This document shows, in pieces, positions 1,195 through 6,078 of a stretch of 37,935 nucleotides of DNA. Position 1 is the first letter of the stretch; every line of letters begins with the position of its first letter. Where the stretch lies: the NCBI GenBank assembly GCA_028821475.1, contig JAPPGB010000106.1, positions 1 to 37,935 on the forward strand, given 5' to 3'. Source of the stretch: Spirochaetaceae bacterium (lineage in GTDB: Bacteria; Spirochaetota; Spirochaetia; SZUA-6; Bin103). Position numbers and translations under genes: made by a program. The notes under the pieces were generated by a model. The model worked only from the letters and a program-made list of their open reading frames with translations, did no database searches and was not told the DNA's origin.

Positions 1195-2229
1195 TCAGCT
1201 CCGTGCGGTTCTCTGCAGGCGCTCCGCCACCCGCAGCGCGTCCACCTGCGGCAGCACCAGCGGCTCCATCGCCGCGCGCAACCGTTGCGCCAACCCCTTG
1301 ACCGGGCGCTCCTCGAACCGCCAGGAGTCGTCACCGGCCGCCACGTCGCTCAGCAACGCGCTGAACATCAGGACGCGCAGCCGGCGCCCGCTCGCCGTGC
1401 CGTCGGCGACCTGTTCGTCCAGCGCCGTCAGGCGCCGGCCGACCGCGGACCCGTCCAGCCGCGGCCCCGCCTGGCCGGCCAGTTGCGGCAACAGCACGGC
1501 GAACAACCCCAGATCATGGGCGGAATCGAGAATCTCCGCGGCCCGGCCGCAGGACAGGATCTTGACCAGCTCTTCGGTCAACCGCTCCGCCGAGCACTCG
1601 GTGAGACGCGCGGCGTACCGGCCGATCAGCACCCGGTAGCGCCGCTCCATGGAGAAGCCGACGAGGCGGGCGTACTTGACCGCCCGGATCATCCGCACCG
1701 GGTCCTCCCGGAACGACTCCTCCGGGGCGCCCACGGTGCGCAGTGCGCGCCGCTGGATGTCGTCGAACCCGCCCACGTAGTCGATAAGCCGCTCGCTGCG
1801 CGGCGCGTAGTAGAGCGCGTTGAAGCTGAAGTCGCGCCGGAACGCGTCCTGGTCCACGGTGCCGTAGCGATTGGCGGTGGAGGTATCCGCGGCGCGGAAC
1901 GTGGCTACCTCGAACACCCGCCGCCCCGACGGCACGTGCACCAGCTTGAACCGGCGTCCGATGATGCGCGCGCCGCGAAACAGCGCGGTGATCTGCCGCG
2001 GGCGGGCGCTGGTTGCCACGTCGAAGTCCTTCGGGTCGCGCCCGGTCAGCAGATCGCGCAGCGCACCGCCGACGATGTATGCCTCGTGGCCGGCGCGCGT
2101 CAGCCGCTGGCAGATCGCGGCCGCCCCCGAGTCTATGGTGGAGCCGCGAATGCCATGCTCACTCGGCAGGTAGACGTTGGCGGTGGCGCGTGTGGCGCCA
2201 TCGACGGATCTTCGATATCGCTTGAGCAA
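1195..2229 (-). CDS. pcnB: Poly(A) polymerase / CCA-type tRNA nucleotidyltransferase
   Basis: Class II nucleotidyltransferase of about 344 residues. It adds nucleotides to RNA 3' ends: poly(A) tails for decay, or CCA on tRNA. The catalytic core is clear: VGG at 53-55, RDLLTGRDPKDFD with the metal-binding D-x-D at 68-70, then IIGRRFKLVHV (89-99), RRDFSFNAL and the RNA/ATP-binding segment REDPVRMIRAVKYARLVGF. The I-I-G-R-R-F-x-L-x-H-V string fits the signature reported for bacterial poly(A) polymerases rather than CCA enzymes. There is no ATG in frame; TTG at 2229 is the best start and lies 26 nt after the clpX-like stop, so the two are probably co-transcribed. The frame runs open far upstream through clpX, but that part is shadow. 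At 344 residues it is shorter than E. coli PcnB and lacks its long basic tail. Confidence 0.8.
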   Translation of the reverse strand: MLKRYRRSVDGATRATANVYLPSEHGIRGSTIDSGAAAICQRLTRAGHEAYIVGGALRDLLTGRDPKDFDVATSARPRQITALFRGARIIGRRFKLVHVPSGRRVFEVATFRAADTSTANRYGTVDQDAFRRDFSFNALYYAPRSERLIDYVGGFDDIQRRALRTVGAPEESFREDPVRMIRAVKYARLVGFSMERRYRVLIGRYAARLTECSAERLTEELVKILSCGRAAEILDSAHDLGLFAVLLPQLAGQAGPRLDGSAVGRRLTALDEQVADGTASGRRLRVLMFSALLSDVAAGDDSWRFEERPVKGLAQRLRAAMEPLVLPQVDALRVAERLQRTARS

Positions 2230-2255: not shown

Positions 2256-3398
2256 TCAGCCGAGCGCGAAGCCGAACTCGCCGTCGCGCAACTCCAGGCG
2301 CACGCGCTTTACCCCCGCTTCGGAATACGCCTGGAACGCGGCATCTTCGAGGTGCCGGGCAAACACCGACTCCAACCCGCGCGCGCCGCTCTCCTTGCGC
2401 AGCGCCTGGCGTACCATCAGTTCCACCACGGCGTCGTCCACCTCCAGCTCGATCTCCTCGAACAGGAACTCGTTGCGGTACTGGGTGATGATGTTCTCCC
2501 TGAGGATGCCGGCAAGCTGCCCGGCTGACAGCGACTGAAACGGCACGATGCGCTTGAACCGGCCGATCAACTCGGGCAGAAACCCGAACCTCTGGAAGTA
2601 ACGCACCGCCGCGACATCCTCTTCGCTGTAGGACACCGCGATGCGTTCGGGTTCGTCGCCGATGGCGCGGCGGCCAAAGCCGATGCCGGATCCCGCCGCC
2701 GCATCGGTCACTCCCTTGAAGCCGGAGAACGCCCCGCACGCAATGAACGAGATGTCGGCGGTGGAGACCACCGTGCGCGCGCCGTACTCGGAGTGGGACA
2801 GGTCGTTGGGCACCGAGATGTCCGCCGCCTCGAGCATCTTGAGCAGTTCTCTCTGCACGCCGAGGCCCGACACGTCCTTGGTAGTGGCCGCGCCGGCGAA
2901 CACGGCGTTGTTGTGCCCCGCCGCGACCTTGTCGAATTCGTCCAGGCACACCACGCCCACCGAGGTGGCGTGTTGATTCAGATCCGCGGCGTACAGGAGC
3001 CGGGTCAGAATCGAGGTGACCTCCTGGCCGACGTAGCCGGTTTCCGAGTAGCCGGTCAGGTCCACGATCAGCGTCGGCAGGTGGAGGATGTGCTGAAACA
3101 GCAGTTCGACCAGGTGCGTCTTGCCGCACCCGGTAGGACCGACCAGGAGCAGGTTGGTCTTGGCCGGCAACAGGTCGCGGCTCACTCCTTCGAGGTGGAT
3201 CTTGCGCAGCCGGGACACGTGGCGGTACGCCATGAGCGACACTGCCGTGATCGCCCGCTCCTGGCCGACGTAACCCAACTCCCGAATGGTGTCGGCGATC
3301 TGGCGCGGAGTGAGGAAGGGGATGCTGCGCACGTACAGCACGATCTCCTGATCGTTGCGTTGCGGGCGCAGGTTGCGTGTCTGCCGCGCAAGTGCCAT
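2256..3398 (-). CDS. ClpX-like AAA+ unfoldase lacking the N-terminal zinc-binding domain
   Basis: ATP-driven protein unfoldase of 380 residues from ATG 3398; in-frame alternatives are at 3419 and 3458. Visible ClpX features are Walker A GPTGCGKT (87-94), the pore loop GYVG (121-124), Walker B LDEFD (152-156), an IGF loop (239-241) that in ClpX docks on ClpP, the arginine finger in LIGRFKR (near 280) and the sensor-2 string GARGLES (338-344). E. coli ClpX has 424 residues with a Cys4 zinc domain in the first 60. Here that domain is absent, and the N-terminus is a short basic segment followed by the helical IPFLTPRQIADTI. No clpP is present in the window. This is either a second ClpX paralogue or the sole ClpX in reduced form. 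AGGG lies about 13 nt upstream of ATG 3398, so the start is not certain. Confidence 0.82.
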   Translation of the reverse strand: MALARQTRNLRPQRNDQEIVLYVRSIPFLTPRQIADTIRELGYVGQERAITAVSLMAYRHVSRLRKIHLEGVSRDLLPAKTNLLLVGPTGCGKTHLVELLFQHILHLPTLIVDLTGYSETGYVGQEVTSILTRLLYAADLNQHATSVGVVCLDEFDKVAAGHNNAVFAGAATTKDVSGLGVQRELLKMLEAADISVPNDLSHSEYGARTVVSTADISFIACGAFSGFKGVTDAAAGSGIGFGRRAIGDEPERIAVSYSEEDVAAVRYFQRFGFLPELIGRFKRIVPFQSLSAGQLAGILRENIITQYRNEFLFEEIELEVDDAVVELMVRQALRKESGARGLESVFARHLEDAAFQAYSEAGVKRVRLELRDGEFGFALG

Positions 3399-3504
3399 GA
3401 ACCGGGGCAACCCTAACATCCCGCCCGGCGATGCGCCAGCCCGGACGCTGAACCACACCGCGGCAGATGCCGTCGGTCCGCCGCCGGGGTTAGACTATGG
3501 GGGA

Positions 3505-6078
3505 ATGCAGCCGTCAGGAGAGTCGATCAGCGAGCTTGCAGCAGCGCTGCCGGTCGTCCGCCACCGCGACCGGATCGTGCGCCACGTCGCCGCCAACCCG
3601 GTCATCGTGGTGGAAAGCCCGACCGGCTCCGGAAAGACCACCCAGCTTCCCCGCATCCTGTACGATGCCGGCTACGCCGACAGCGGCCGCATCGGCGTAA
3701 CGCAGCCGCGCCGCATCGCCGCGGTATCGGTCACCGACTTCATACGTGCGCAACTCGCTGCCGACGCCGGGGCCGCCGCCGGCGCGGTCGCCGCGTACAA
3801 GATGCGCTTCGAGGACACCACCACGCGCGAAACGCGCATCAAGGTGATGACCGACGGCGTGCTGCTGCAGGAGCTCGGGCACGACCGCCTGCTCGGCGAG
3901 TACTCGGTGATGATGGTCGACGAGGCGCACGAACGTTCGCTCAACATCGACTTCGTTCTCGGCCTGCTGAAGGGCGTGCTCGCACAGCGGCCCGAATTCA
4001 AGGTGGTGGTCTCGTCCGCCACCATCAACGCGGAGGTGTTCTCCGAGTACTTCGACTCCTGCCCGATCGTGCGCCTCGACACGCCGGCGCACCCGGTACG
4101 GATCCACTACCGCCCGTTTCAACCCGCCGGCGACCCCGACCAGCTCATGGCGGCCGTGGAACGGATCGTGCTTGAAATCGACCGCTCCCGCCGGCCGGGC
4201 GACATCCTGGTGTTCCTGTCGGGCGAACGCGACATCCGCGCCTGCATCGCGACGCTCGCCGCGCGCCGCGAGAGCCGGCGCTGGCAGCTCCTGCCGTTGT
4301 ACGCCCGGCTGTCGCGCGCCGAGCAGGATCGGGTATTCGCGCCGTTTCCGGGCCGGCGCAAGATCGTGGTGGCCACCAACATCGCCGAGACCAGCGTCAC
4401 CATCCCCGGCATCGGCTACGTGATCGACTCCGGTCTGGCCAAGGTGAACTCGTTCAACACCCGCACGCTCACCGCCGCGCTCACCGAGCAGCCGATTTCG
4501 CACGCGTCCTGCAACCAGCGCCGCGGGCGCGCCGGACGCACCGGTCCCGGCTCCTGCTATCGGCTCTACTCGGAGGCATCCTACCAGCGGCGGCCGCTGT
4601 TCGAGACCGAGGAGATCCATCGCACCGACCTGTCGGAGGTGGTGCTGCGGATGGCGGAGCTGGGCATCACCGAGTTCGAGGAGTTCGACTTTCTCTCCTC
4701 GCCGGGCCGCGAACGGATCGCCAGCGCGGTGGCGCTGCTCGGCATGCTCGACGCGCTCGACGCCGACCGCGCGCTGACCGAGGTGGGCCGCACCATGGTC
4801 AAGTTTCCGCTCCTGCCGCGCCACTCCCGCATCCTGGTGGAGGCGATCCACCGCTATCCGGAGGTGCTGGAGGAGGCGATTATCGCCGCCGCCGTCCTGT
4901 CGGTGCCCGCGCCGTTCGTGATGCCGGAGGGCCGCGAGCTGGAGGCGCGCCACGCGCACCACGCGTTTCGCCACCCGCTCGGCGACCTCGTAGCCTGCCT
5001 GGACCTGTACCGGCAGTTCCGCGACAACGGCGACCGCGACGGCTTCTGCGCGCGCCACTACCTGGAGCCGCGCACCATGCACGAGATCCTCAACGTCAAG
5101 GCGCAACTCGAGGAGATCGTCAGCGGGCTCGGCGTGCCGGTGAGCGGCGGCGGCTCGACCAGCCACTACCTGCGCGCCGTCGGACGCGGGCTGATTCAGT
5201 TCATCTGCGTTGCCGCCGCACCGGGCCGCTATCGCAGTCCGACCGCCGGCAACATCTTCATCCACCCCGGATCGGGCATGTACCAGCAGCCGGCGCGCTA
5301 CATCGTGGCGGGCGAGATCATGCGCACGTCGCGCGCCTACGCGCGCTCGGTGTCGCCGCTGACCCGCGAGGAGGTGCGCGCCATCTCGCCCGACCTCCTG
5401 GCCGACCTGATCGCGGTGTCGCAGGACGGGTCGAAGGGCGCGCGCCGCGCCGGGCGTGGTCGCGGCGGCGACCGGCCGGGCACCGGGGAGCGCCCCGGCC
5501 GCCATACCCGTTCCGGCGGAGCGCGCGACGCGGCGCGGCAGCTGCATCTGCTCGGGCGGGTGTTCGAGGTCACCGAACAGCGCAGCAAGCGGCCGCTGGT
5601 TACCCTGCCGTGGCAGGAGGCGGCCCCCATCGCGCGCCGCGCCGGGCGCCGCTCGCTGGCGGCGTACCGCGCGTGGCGCGGCCGCATTACCCTGGACGGG
5701 GATGAGATCATGCCGGGGGCGCGCCTGGAGGCGCTGTTCGAGGTGCTCGCCAGGATCGATCCCGCGCACCGCGTCGACGCCGGCTGGCCGCGCGATACCC
5801 TGCGCATGCCGCAGGACGGCGCGCTCCTGCTCGACCGTCTCCGCCACCTGCTGGCAATCGGCCCGCGCCGCGCCGGATCCCGCAAGTTGGGCTTCATCGC
5901 GTTGCAGACCGATGCCAACGGCGCGTTCTGGCTCTCGCTGCGGCGCAATCTGCAGAACGCGGTGGCGGACAGCCTCGCTGCGCTGGAGACCCTGGCCGAC
6001 GCTCGGCAGGGGGAGCTGGACGACGATCAGAGGGCCGGCGTGAGCGCGGTCTACCGGCGGGTGGCGAACCTGTTGTGA
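3505..6078 (+). CDS. hrpA: DEAH-box ATP-dependent RNA helicase HrpA-like
   Basis: DEAH/RHA-family RNA helicase of 857 residues, cytoplasmic, acting on mRNA or ribosome-associated RNA. The motifs in order are: Walker A GSGKT (41-45), TQPRRIAA (motif Ia), DEAH (139-142), SSATI (motif III), TNIAETSVTIPGI (motifs IV-V) and QRRGRAGR (338-345, motif VI). Winged-helix, ratchet and OB regions follow. E. coli HrpA has about 1,300 residues; this one lacks most of the long C-terminal extension. The start ATG 3505 follows a purine run GGGGGA very closely. The open frame extends to 3355, but that part is antisense to the clpX-like gene. A TAGACT hexamer at 3490-3495 would put the transcript start almost at the ATG, so a leaderless or near-leaderless mRNA is possible. 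Confidence 0.9.
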   Translation: MQPSGESISELAAALPVVRHRDRIVRHVAANPVIVVESPTGSGKTTQLPRILYDAGYADSGRIGVTQPRRIAAVSVTDFIRAQLAADAGAAAGAVAAYKMRFEDTTTRETRIKVMTDGVLLQELGHDRLLGEYSVMMVDEAHERSLNIDFVLGLLKGVLAQRPEFKVVVSSATINAEVFSEYFDSCPIVRLDTPAHPVRIHYRPFQPAGDPDQLMAAVERIVLEIDRSRRPGDILVFLSGERDIRACIATLAARRESRRWQLLPLYARLSRAEQDRVFAPFPGRRKIVVATNIAETSVTIPGIGYVIDSGLAKVNSFNTRTLTAALTEQPISHASCNQRRGRAGRTGPGSCYRLYSEASYQRRPLFETEEIHRTDLSEVVLRMAELGITEFEEFDFLSSPGRERIASAVALLGMLDALDADRALTEVGRTMVKFPLLPRHSRILVEAIHRYPEVLEEAIIAAAVLSVPAPFVMPEGRELEARHAHHAFRHPLGDLVACLDLYRQFRDNGDRDGFCARHYLEPRTMHEILNVKAQLEEIVSGLGVPVSGGGSTSHYLRAVGRGLIQFICVAAAPGRYRSPTAGNIFIHPGSGMYQQPARYIVAGEIMRTSRAYARSVSPLTREEVRAISPDLLADLIAVSQDGSKGARRAGRGRGGDRPGTGERPGRHTRSGGARDAARQLHLLGRVFEVTEQRSKRPLVTLPWQEAAPIARRAGRRSLAAYRAWRGRITLDGDEIMPGARLEALFEVLARIDPAHRVDAGWPRDTLRMPQDGALLLDRLRHLLAIGPRRAGSRKLGFIALQTDANGAFWLSLRRNLQNAVADSLAALETLADARQGELDDDQRAGVSAVYRRVANLL

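Follow-up and report, generated by a model that had tools for sequence, protein, structure and literature searches.

The window, i.e., the whole 37,935-nucleotide stretch of DNA analysed (contig JAPPGB010000106.1 of the Spirochaetaceae bacterium assembly GCA_028821475.1), carries a ClpX-like gene with a pcnB-like frame directly downstream and a divergent hrpA-like helicase gene on its other side (Table 1). Among the Pfam models above cut-off, AAA_2 and ClpB_D2-small matched the protein read from ATG to stop best, and zf-C4_ClpX was missing. The two NCBIfam ClpX models both failed (224.5 and 196.3 bits against cut-offs of 359 and 370.75), and the HslU model remained below its cut-off as well (97.5 against 362.45 bits). 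With the GYVG and IGF motifs located in the protein, the sequence-only reading of a ClpX-like unfoldase without the zinc-binding domain is confirmed for this gene. A Cys4 domain hidden upstream by a frameshift, which that reading had named as a possible objection, was absent from all six frames over the surrounding 2.4 kb (the lone C..C-like spacing match crosses a stop codon), and the single zf-C4_ClpX match in the whole genome lies in the canonical clpX on a different contig. Also near the locus, at 120-1163, is a conserved ATP-binding protein with weak ABC_tran/AAA matches only, which is kept in this vicinity in 5 loci.

Table 1. Features of the ClpX-like locus in the window (residue numbers refer to the ClpX-like protein)
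Feature	Position	Strand	Evidence and remarks
pcnB-like poly(A) polymerase/nucleotidyltransferase frame, directly downstream	1195..2223	-	start codon not fixed; TIGR01942 297.5 bits, cut-off 305.65
ClpX-like AAA+ unfoldase gene without zinc-binding domain	2256..3398	-	380 aa (ATG to stop); translation, Pfam/NCBIfam, 71-locus family, trees
IGF motif (ClpP-docking loop), residues 239-241	2676..2684	-	[ILMV]G[FY] in 75/76 family ORFs; within low-pLDDT loop 237-249
Segment replacing RKH loop, residues 198-208, no RKH	2775..2807	-	RKH in 0/76 family ORFs
Pore-2 segment, residues 158-172	2883..2927	-	15 residues; canonical ClpX 10-11
Walker B CLDEFD, residues 151-156	2931..2948	-	D153 and E154 in 76/76 family ORFs
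Pore-1 loop GYVG, residues 121-124	3027..3038	-	GYVG 64, GYIG 9, other 3 (n=76)
Walker A GPTGCGKT, residues 87-94	3117..3140	-	K93 and T94 in 76/76 family ORFs
hrpA-like DEAH helicase, divergent neighbour	3517..6075	+	TIGR01967 562 bits, under cut-off

Clp machinery of the same genome

The genome that holds the window also encodes a canonical, Cys4-bearing ClpX in the order tig-clpP-clpX, a second ClpP besides the one in this cluster, and an hslVU locus of its own, separate from the ClpX-like gene; the ClpX-like protein is therefore an addition to ClpX and not its replacement. The inventory of full-length ClpX and of ClpP proposed in the sequence-only reading thus came to one ClpX and two ClpPs, both of the latter with the full Ser-His-Asp triad. 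In the alignment, both have a largely hydrophobic pocket at what we take to be the pocket positions of ClpP. Judged by eye, the alignment shows no arginine in ClpP2 close to E. coli R192, a residue described as required for docking in E. coli ClpP (PMC7112951), and for this reason ClpP1 may be the better guess as partner of the ClpX-like protein, a weak preference. The second ClpP was considered as a dedicated partner and set aside: across 61 relatives both ClpP types occur with or without the ClpX-like gene, so their co-occurrence is uninformative. Elsewhere in the genome, a 316-aa protein gave a weak match to CLP_protease (PF00574, 27.8 bits; G000:C173:43333-43596, L107) and is a distant relative with the ClpP fold.

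The ClpX-like family and its kept and altered loops

A pattern-based, non-exhaustive scan of the genome collection recovered 71 loci with relatives of the ClpX-like protein (40-93% identity), mostly in metagenome assemblies, the labels of which cover about a dozen phyla (Spirochaetes, Myxococcota/Deltaproteobacteria, Bacteroidetes, Acidobacteria, Planctomycetota, Verrucomicrobia, Riflebacteria, Nitrospirae, Coatesbacteria, Lindowbacteria, Bacillota and Deinococcales). Within the class, an orthologue was found in 16 of the 394 genomes at E <= 1e-65; given these and the 71 loci, the gene is more than a chance occurrence. In a tree of 48 rows, a branch with 100/100 support separated 26 ClpX-like members from the rest, and 20 canonical ClpX (91/87) and two HslU rows (100/100) formed the other groups; the tree was rooted on the HslU rows, and since long branches meet at the root, the nearer sister of the ClpX-like clade is not fixed by it. 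A quick tree of 73 rows likewise set the ClpX-like members apart from canonical ClpX and placed an Archangium-labelled homologue (L097) inside their clade. Among 37 non-spirochaete-labelled genomes with a ClpX-like gene, hand-chosen from the 71 loci, a ClpX with zf-C4 was present in 36 and ClpP in 34 (the completeness of the remaining three was not given). A plasmid search for the ClpX-like protein gave no match, and phage matches were at the level of ordinary ClpX (34% for the best among the matches listed). The ClpX-like proteins are a real, widespread and poorly described family of ClpX paralogues, and the protein in the window belongs to a real subfamily rather than being a truncated ClpX. 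Beside a family member and a canonical ClpX, one genome contains a further ClpX-related frame (G034:C57:8036-9019; 32% identity, 529-aa open frame).

Motifs were counted in 76 family ORFs, a set freed of identical sequences and including the ORF of the window, and in 15 canonical spirochaete ClpX sequences. The AAA+ core, the Walker motifs, the pore-1 GYVG, the IGF loop, sensor-2 (Arg in 75/75 ungapped family ORFs) and the overall fold are common to both groups, and over 101 family ORFs, duplicates included, BLAST identity to E. coli ClpX is 32-38%. What separates the family from canonical ClpX lies elsewhere: the Cys4 zinc domain is found in none of the 76 ORFs versus 15/15, RKH is likewise missing throughout whereas GGRKHP occurs in 15/15, and the pore-2 loop carries 5 additional residues (15 in 73/73 measurable ORFs, the pattern being unmatched in three of the 76, as against 10-11 residues in all 15 canonical sequences). 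The RKH loop is described as unique to ClpX and as contacting substrate (PMC7112951).

The IGF loops are the part of ClpX that docks ClpP; in E. coli, clefts of ClpP take up I268, F270 and V274, and docking is weakened when the length of the loop is altered (PMC7112951). At this site the family spells IGF in 62 ORFs, LGF in 9, and LGY, MGL, MGF, IGY and VGF once each. Entropy at residues 239-241 is 0.83, 0 and 0.28 bits, against about 2-3.6 bits for the surrounding loop residues, and thus the conservation that the sequence-only reading proposed to check applies to the motif, which is strongly constrained, the rest of the loop being variable. The contacts I268 and F270 are kept in the family, V274 aligns with a variable position (A245), and the stretch from the IGF motif to the core of the ClpX-like protein has three extra residues (265-267). 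The best PDB matches of an AlphaFold monomer model (mean pLDDT 84; low confidence at the N-terminus, pore-1, pore-2 and IGF loop 237-249) were ClpX chains from ClpXP complexes.

Because the IGF motif is kept, the zinc domain and RKH are lost and pore-2 is changed, the side facing ClpP appears conserved and the side facing the substrate rebuilt. From these sequence features, the subfamily is probably a ClpP-docking, ATP-driven unfoldase with substrate selection of its own, and the suggestion of a ClpP-partnered machine with different adaptor rules gains support. Yeast Mcx1 is a remodelling chaperone with the ClpX fold that works independently of ClpP, and the ClpX-like protein could have inherited its fold for a similar task; the loss of the zinc domain, the three of 37 genomes without a ClpP match and the unconserved V274-equivalent position are consistent with this, and the last two, together with the three extra residues, count against docking. 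We nevertheless regard such a chaperone as unlikely, since it would be expected to lose the IGF motif, which 75 of the 76 ORFs keep over great divergence while the flanks vary.

Gene neighbourhood and the glutaminyl-cyclase-like gene

Neighbouring genes were clustered with the ClpX-like gene cut out. Across 15 spirochaete loci, several of which end at contig edges so that all counts are lower bounds, the divergent hrpA is present in 9, with aroB beyond it in 6, and the genes downstream include hisS in 8 and pcnB in 4; in 10 loci the gene immediately after the ClpX-like gene is glutaminyl-cyclase-like (QC-like). The fullest order, pieced together from L040 (right half) and from L063, L103 and L104 (left half), is aroB - hrpA - clpX-like - QC - hisS - pcnB. 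The pairing with pcnB, from which the sequence-only reading had raised a link to RNA decay or stalled translation, is restricted among these loci to the window and the 93%-identical L034. In L035, which belongs to the window's genus, the order is clpX-like - hisS - pcnB, and in L040 the QC-like gene and hisS lie between; adjacency occurs only where both of these genes are missing. We infer that QC and hisS were lost stepwise, so that the adjacency to pcnB would be recent and not an ancestral partnership. A module for RNA decay or stalled translation made up of the ClpX-like gene, pcnB and hrpA is accordingly quite improbable, although pcnB is the immediate same-strand neighbour in the window and hrpA recurs: pcnB is in the flanks of only 4 of the 15 loci, elsewhere with hisS or QC and hisS in between, and such a context was not recovered outside spirochaetes. 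We regard hrpA as conserved context, with no evidence for a functional link. Outside spirochaetes, conserved neighbours were lineage-local only (a sigma-70 region-4 gene, FHIPEP, an EPSP-synthase-family protein and a kinase). In Myxococcota (e.g., L064 and L073), the ClpX-like gene and a gene with sigma-70 region 4 (seen in the representative) are oriented divergently in 17 loci, and a FHIPEP (FlhA/SctV-type) gene is nearby in 15.

The conserved spirochaete partner of the ClpX-like gene is the QC-like M28 gene, which is missing in the window's genus. It was found in 12 of the 394 class genomes, all 12 among the 16 with a ClpX-like gene (Fisher p 7e-20 class-wide; 11/14 vs 0/12, p 5e-5, inside the order; both values are uncorrected for shared ancestry and inflated by linkage). 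In 11 of the 12 it lies directly downstream on the same strand, with -2 to 116 bases between the aligned ends, and it is probably in an operon with the ClpX-like gene; in the twelfth (G019) the two genes are on separate contigs. The ClpX-like gene occurs alone in the window genome (G000), its congeners G001 and G002, and G034; in the window genome a profile search gave only a weak M28-type match (E 1.1e-8).

The best sequence and fold matches of the QC-like protein (model pLDDT 93) are the bacterial glutaminyl cyclases 6qro, 6qql, 7d1d and 7d1b, with which it has fold and active-site residues in common. The QC/M28 metal and catalytic residues H86, D111, E143, D144, D176, D230, W252 and H253 (correspondence read by eye from alignments) are invariant in 10/10 aligned members. 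The protein differs from these cyclases in its probable operon with an AAA+ unfoldase and in its N-terminus, where a simple hydropathy scan of the members gave no evident signal peptide. The metal residues are common to QC and M28 aminopeptidases (PMC11312887), and cyclase activity is for this reason a guess from the modelled fold. When 41 genomes were searched with a QC profile, three contained strong matches (best E 2.9e-87, 1.2e-54 and 2.2e-41), and in an overlap test the QC-like loci of these three did not coincide with their ClpX-like loci. The strongest match is in an assembly labelled 'Bacillota' (G415; QC-like gene in L184, ClpX-like gene on the non-overlapping L084) and may reflect transfer or contamination.

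Proposed function and its alternatives

The lack of one domain and the low scores against ClpX models would fit a degenerate or truncated ClpX duplicate without distinct function, and yet such a reading is very improbable, because the catalytic residues are invariant, the derived pore-2 insertion is common to the family, and the proteins form a single clade over many phyla beside intact ClpX. A zinc domain missed through a frameshift, or an assignment to HslU, which is likewise an AAA+ unfoldase of a two-part protease with a GYVG pore loop, has nothing in its favour and a negligible chance of being correct, as Cys4 is lacking near the gene and in every family ORF and lies elsewhere in the genome, the ClpX models score higher than HslU, hslU has its own locus, and the tree (with two HslU rows) places the ClpX-like protein apart.

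As a ClpP-docking unfoldase, the ClpX-like protein would form a hexamer, dock ClpP through its IGF loops and pull substrates through the GYVG-lined pore into the protease. It would use neither ssrA tags nor zinc-domain adaptors such as SspB; recognition may instead fall to the pore-2 and RKH-replacing segments, or to other adaptors. In many spirochaete relatives, though not in the window's genus, it may work with the probably co-transcribed glutaminyl-cyclase-like enzyme, which could act at the N-terminus, either on substrates or on the peptides that are released. Against this coupling stands the absence of the QC-like gene from 4 of the 16 class genomes with a ClpX-like gene. Of the leads, the coupling holds the most interest, even though the window's own lineage lacks it, and the genetic link offers a concrete, testable hypothesis on N-terminal chemistry in bacterial proteolysis. 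A bolder version would see a dedicated second ClpP pathway. In it, a zinc-domain-less ClpX would choose clients by a novel architecture of its pore entrance and, in spirochaetes, would be coupled to a glutaminyl cyclase of the cytoplasm, through which N-terminal pyroglutamate is either produced or masked; the chemistry of N-terminal Gln and pyroGlu would then gate proteolysis by ClpP or complete it. We hold this to be speculative and rather doubtful. An open-licence literature search on ClpX and glutaminyl cyclase found nothing, nor did searches aimed directly at ClpX paralogues or at ClpX-like proteins lacking the zinc domain.

The zinc domain, the adaptors that bind it and the RKH loop are the usual explanation for how ClpXP chooses its substrates. 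None of these selectors is present in the family, in which the motor and the dock for the protease are retained, and it therefore offers a natural experiment on client selection by a ClpP partner that lacks them.

A zinc-domain-less ClpX is not unheard of, since Myxococcus xanthus has three ClpXs, one of which, ClpX3 (MXAN_2743), is described as having neither the N-domain nor the RKH motif and sits beside canonical ClpX and two ClpPs (PMC11423568). By its published description, ClpX3 is the closest case in the literature and a candidate member of the family; its reported identity to E. coli ClpX (43.5%; PMC11423568) is higher than the 32-38% of the ClpX-like family. In the available parts of the open-licence literature, our search found no ClpP binding by ClpX3, no account of the breadth of the family and no link to QC. 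Deletion of clpX3 leads to poor growth at 36 C, ClpX3 being needed for growth in heat (PMC11423568), and it may serve as a genetic model. Two assemblies carry tandem, divergent ClpX-like copies, L100 (Verrucomicrobia; 1779-2804 and 3401-4429) and L102 (Anaeromyxobacter; 3919-4902 and 5001-5966), the products of which could possibly form mixed rings.
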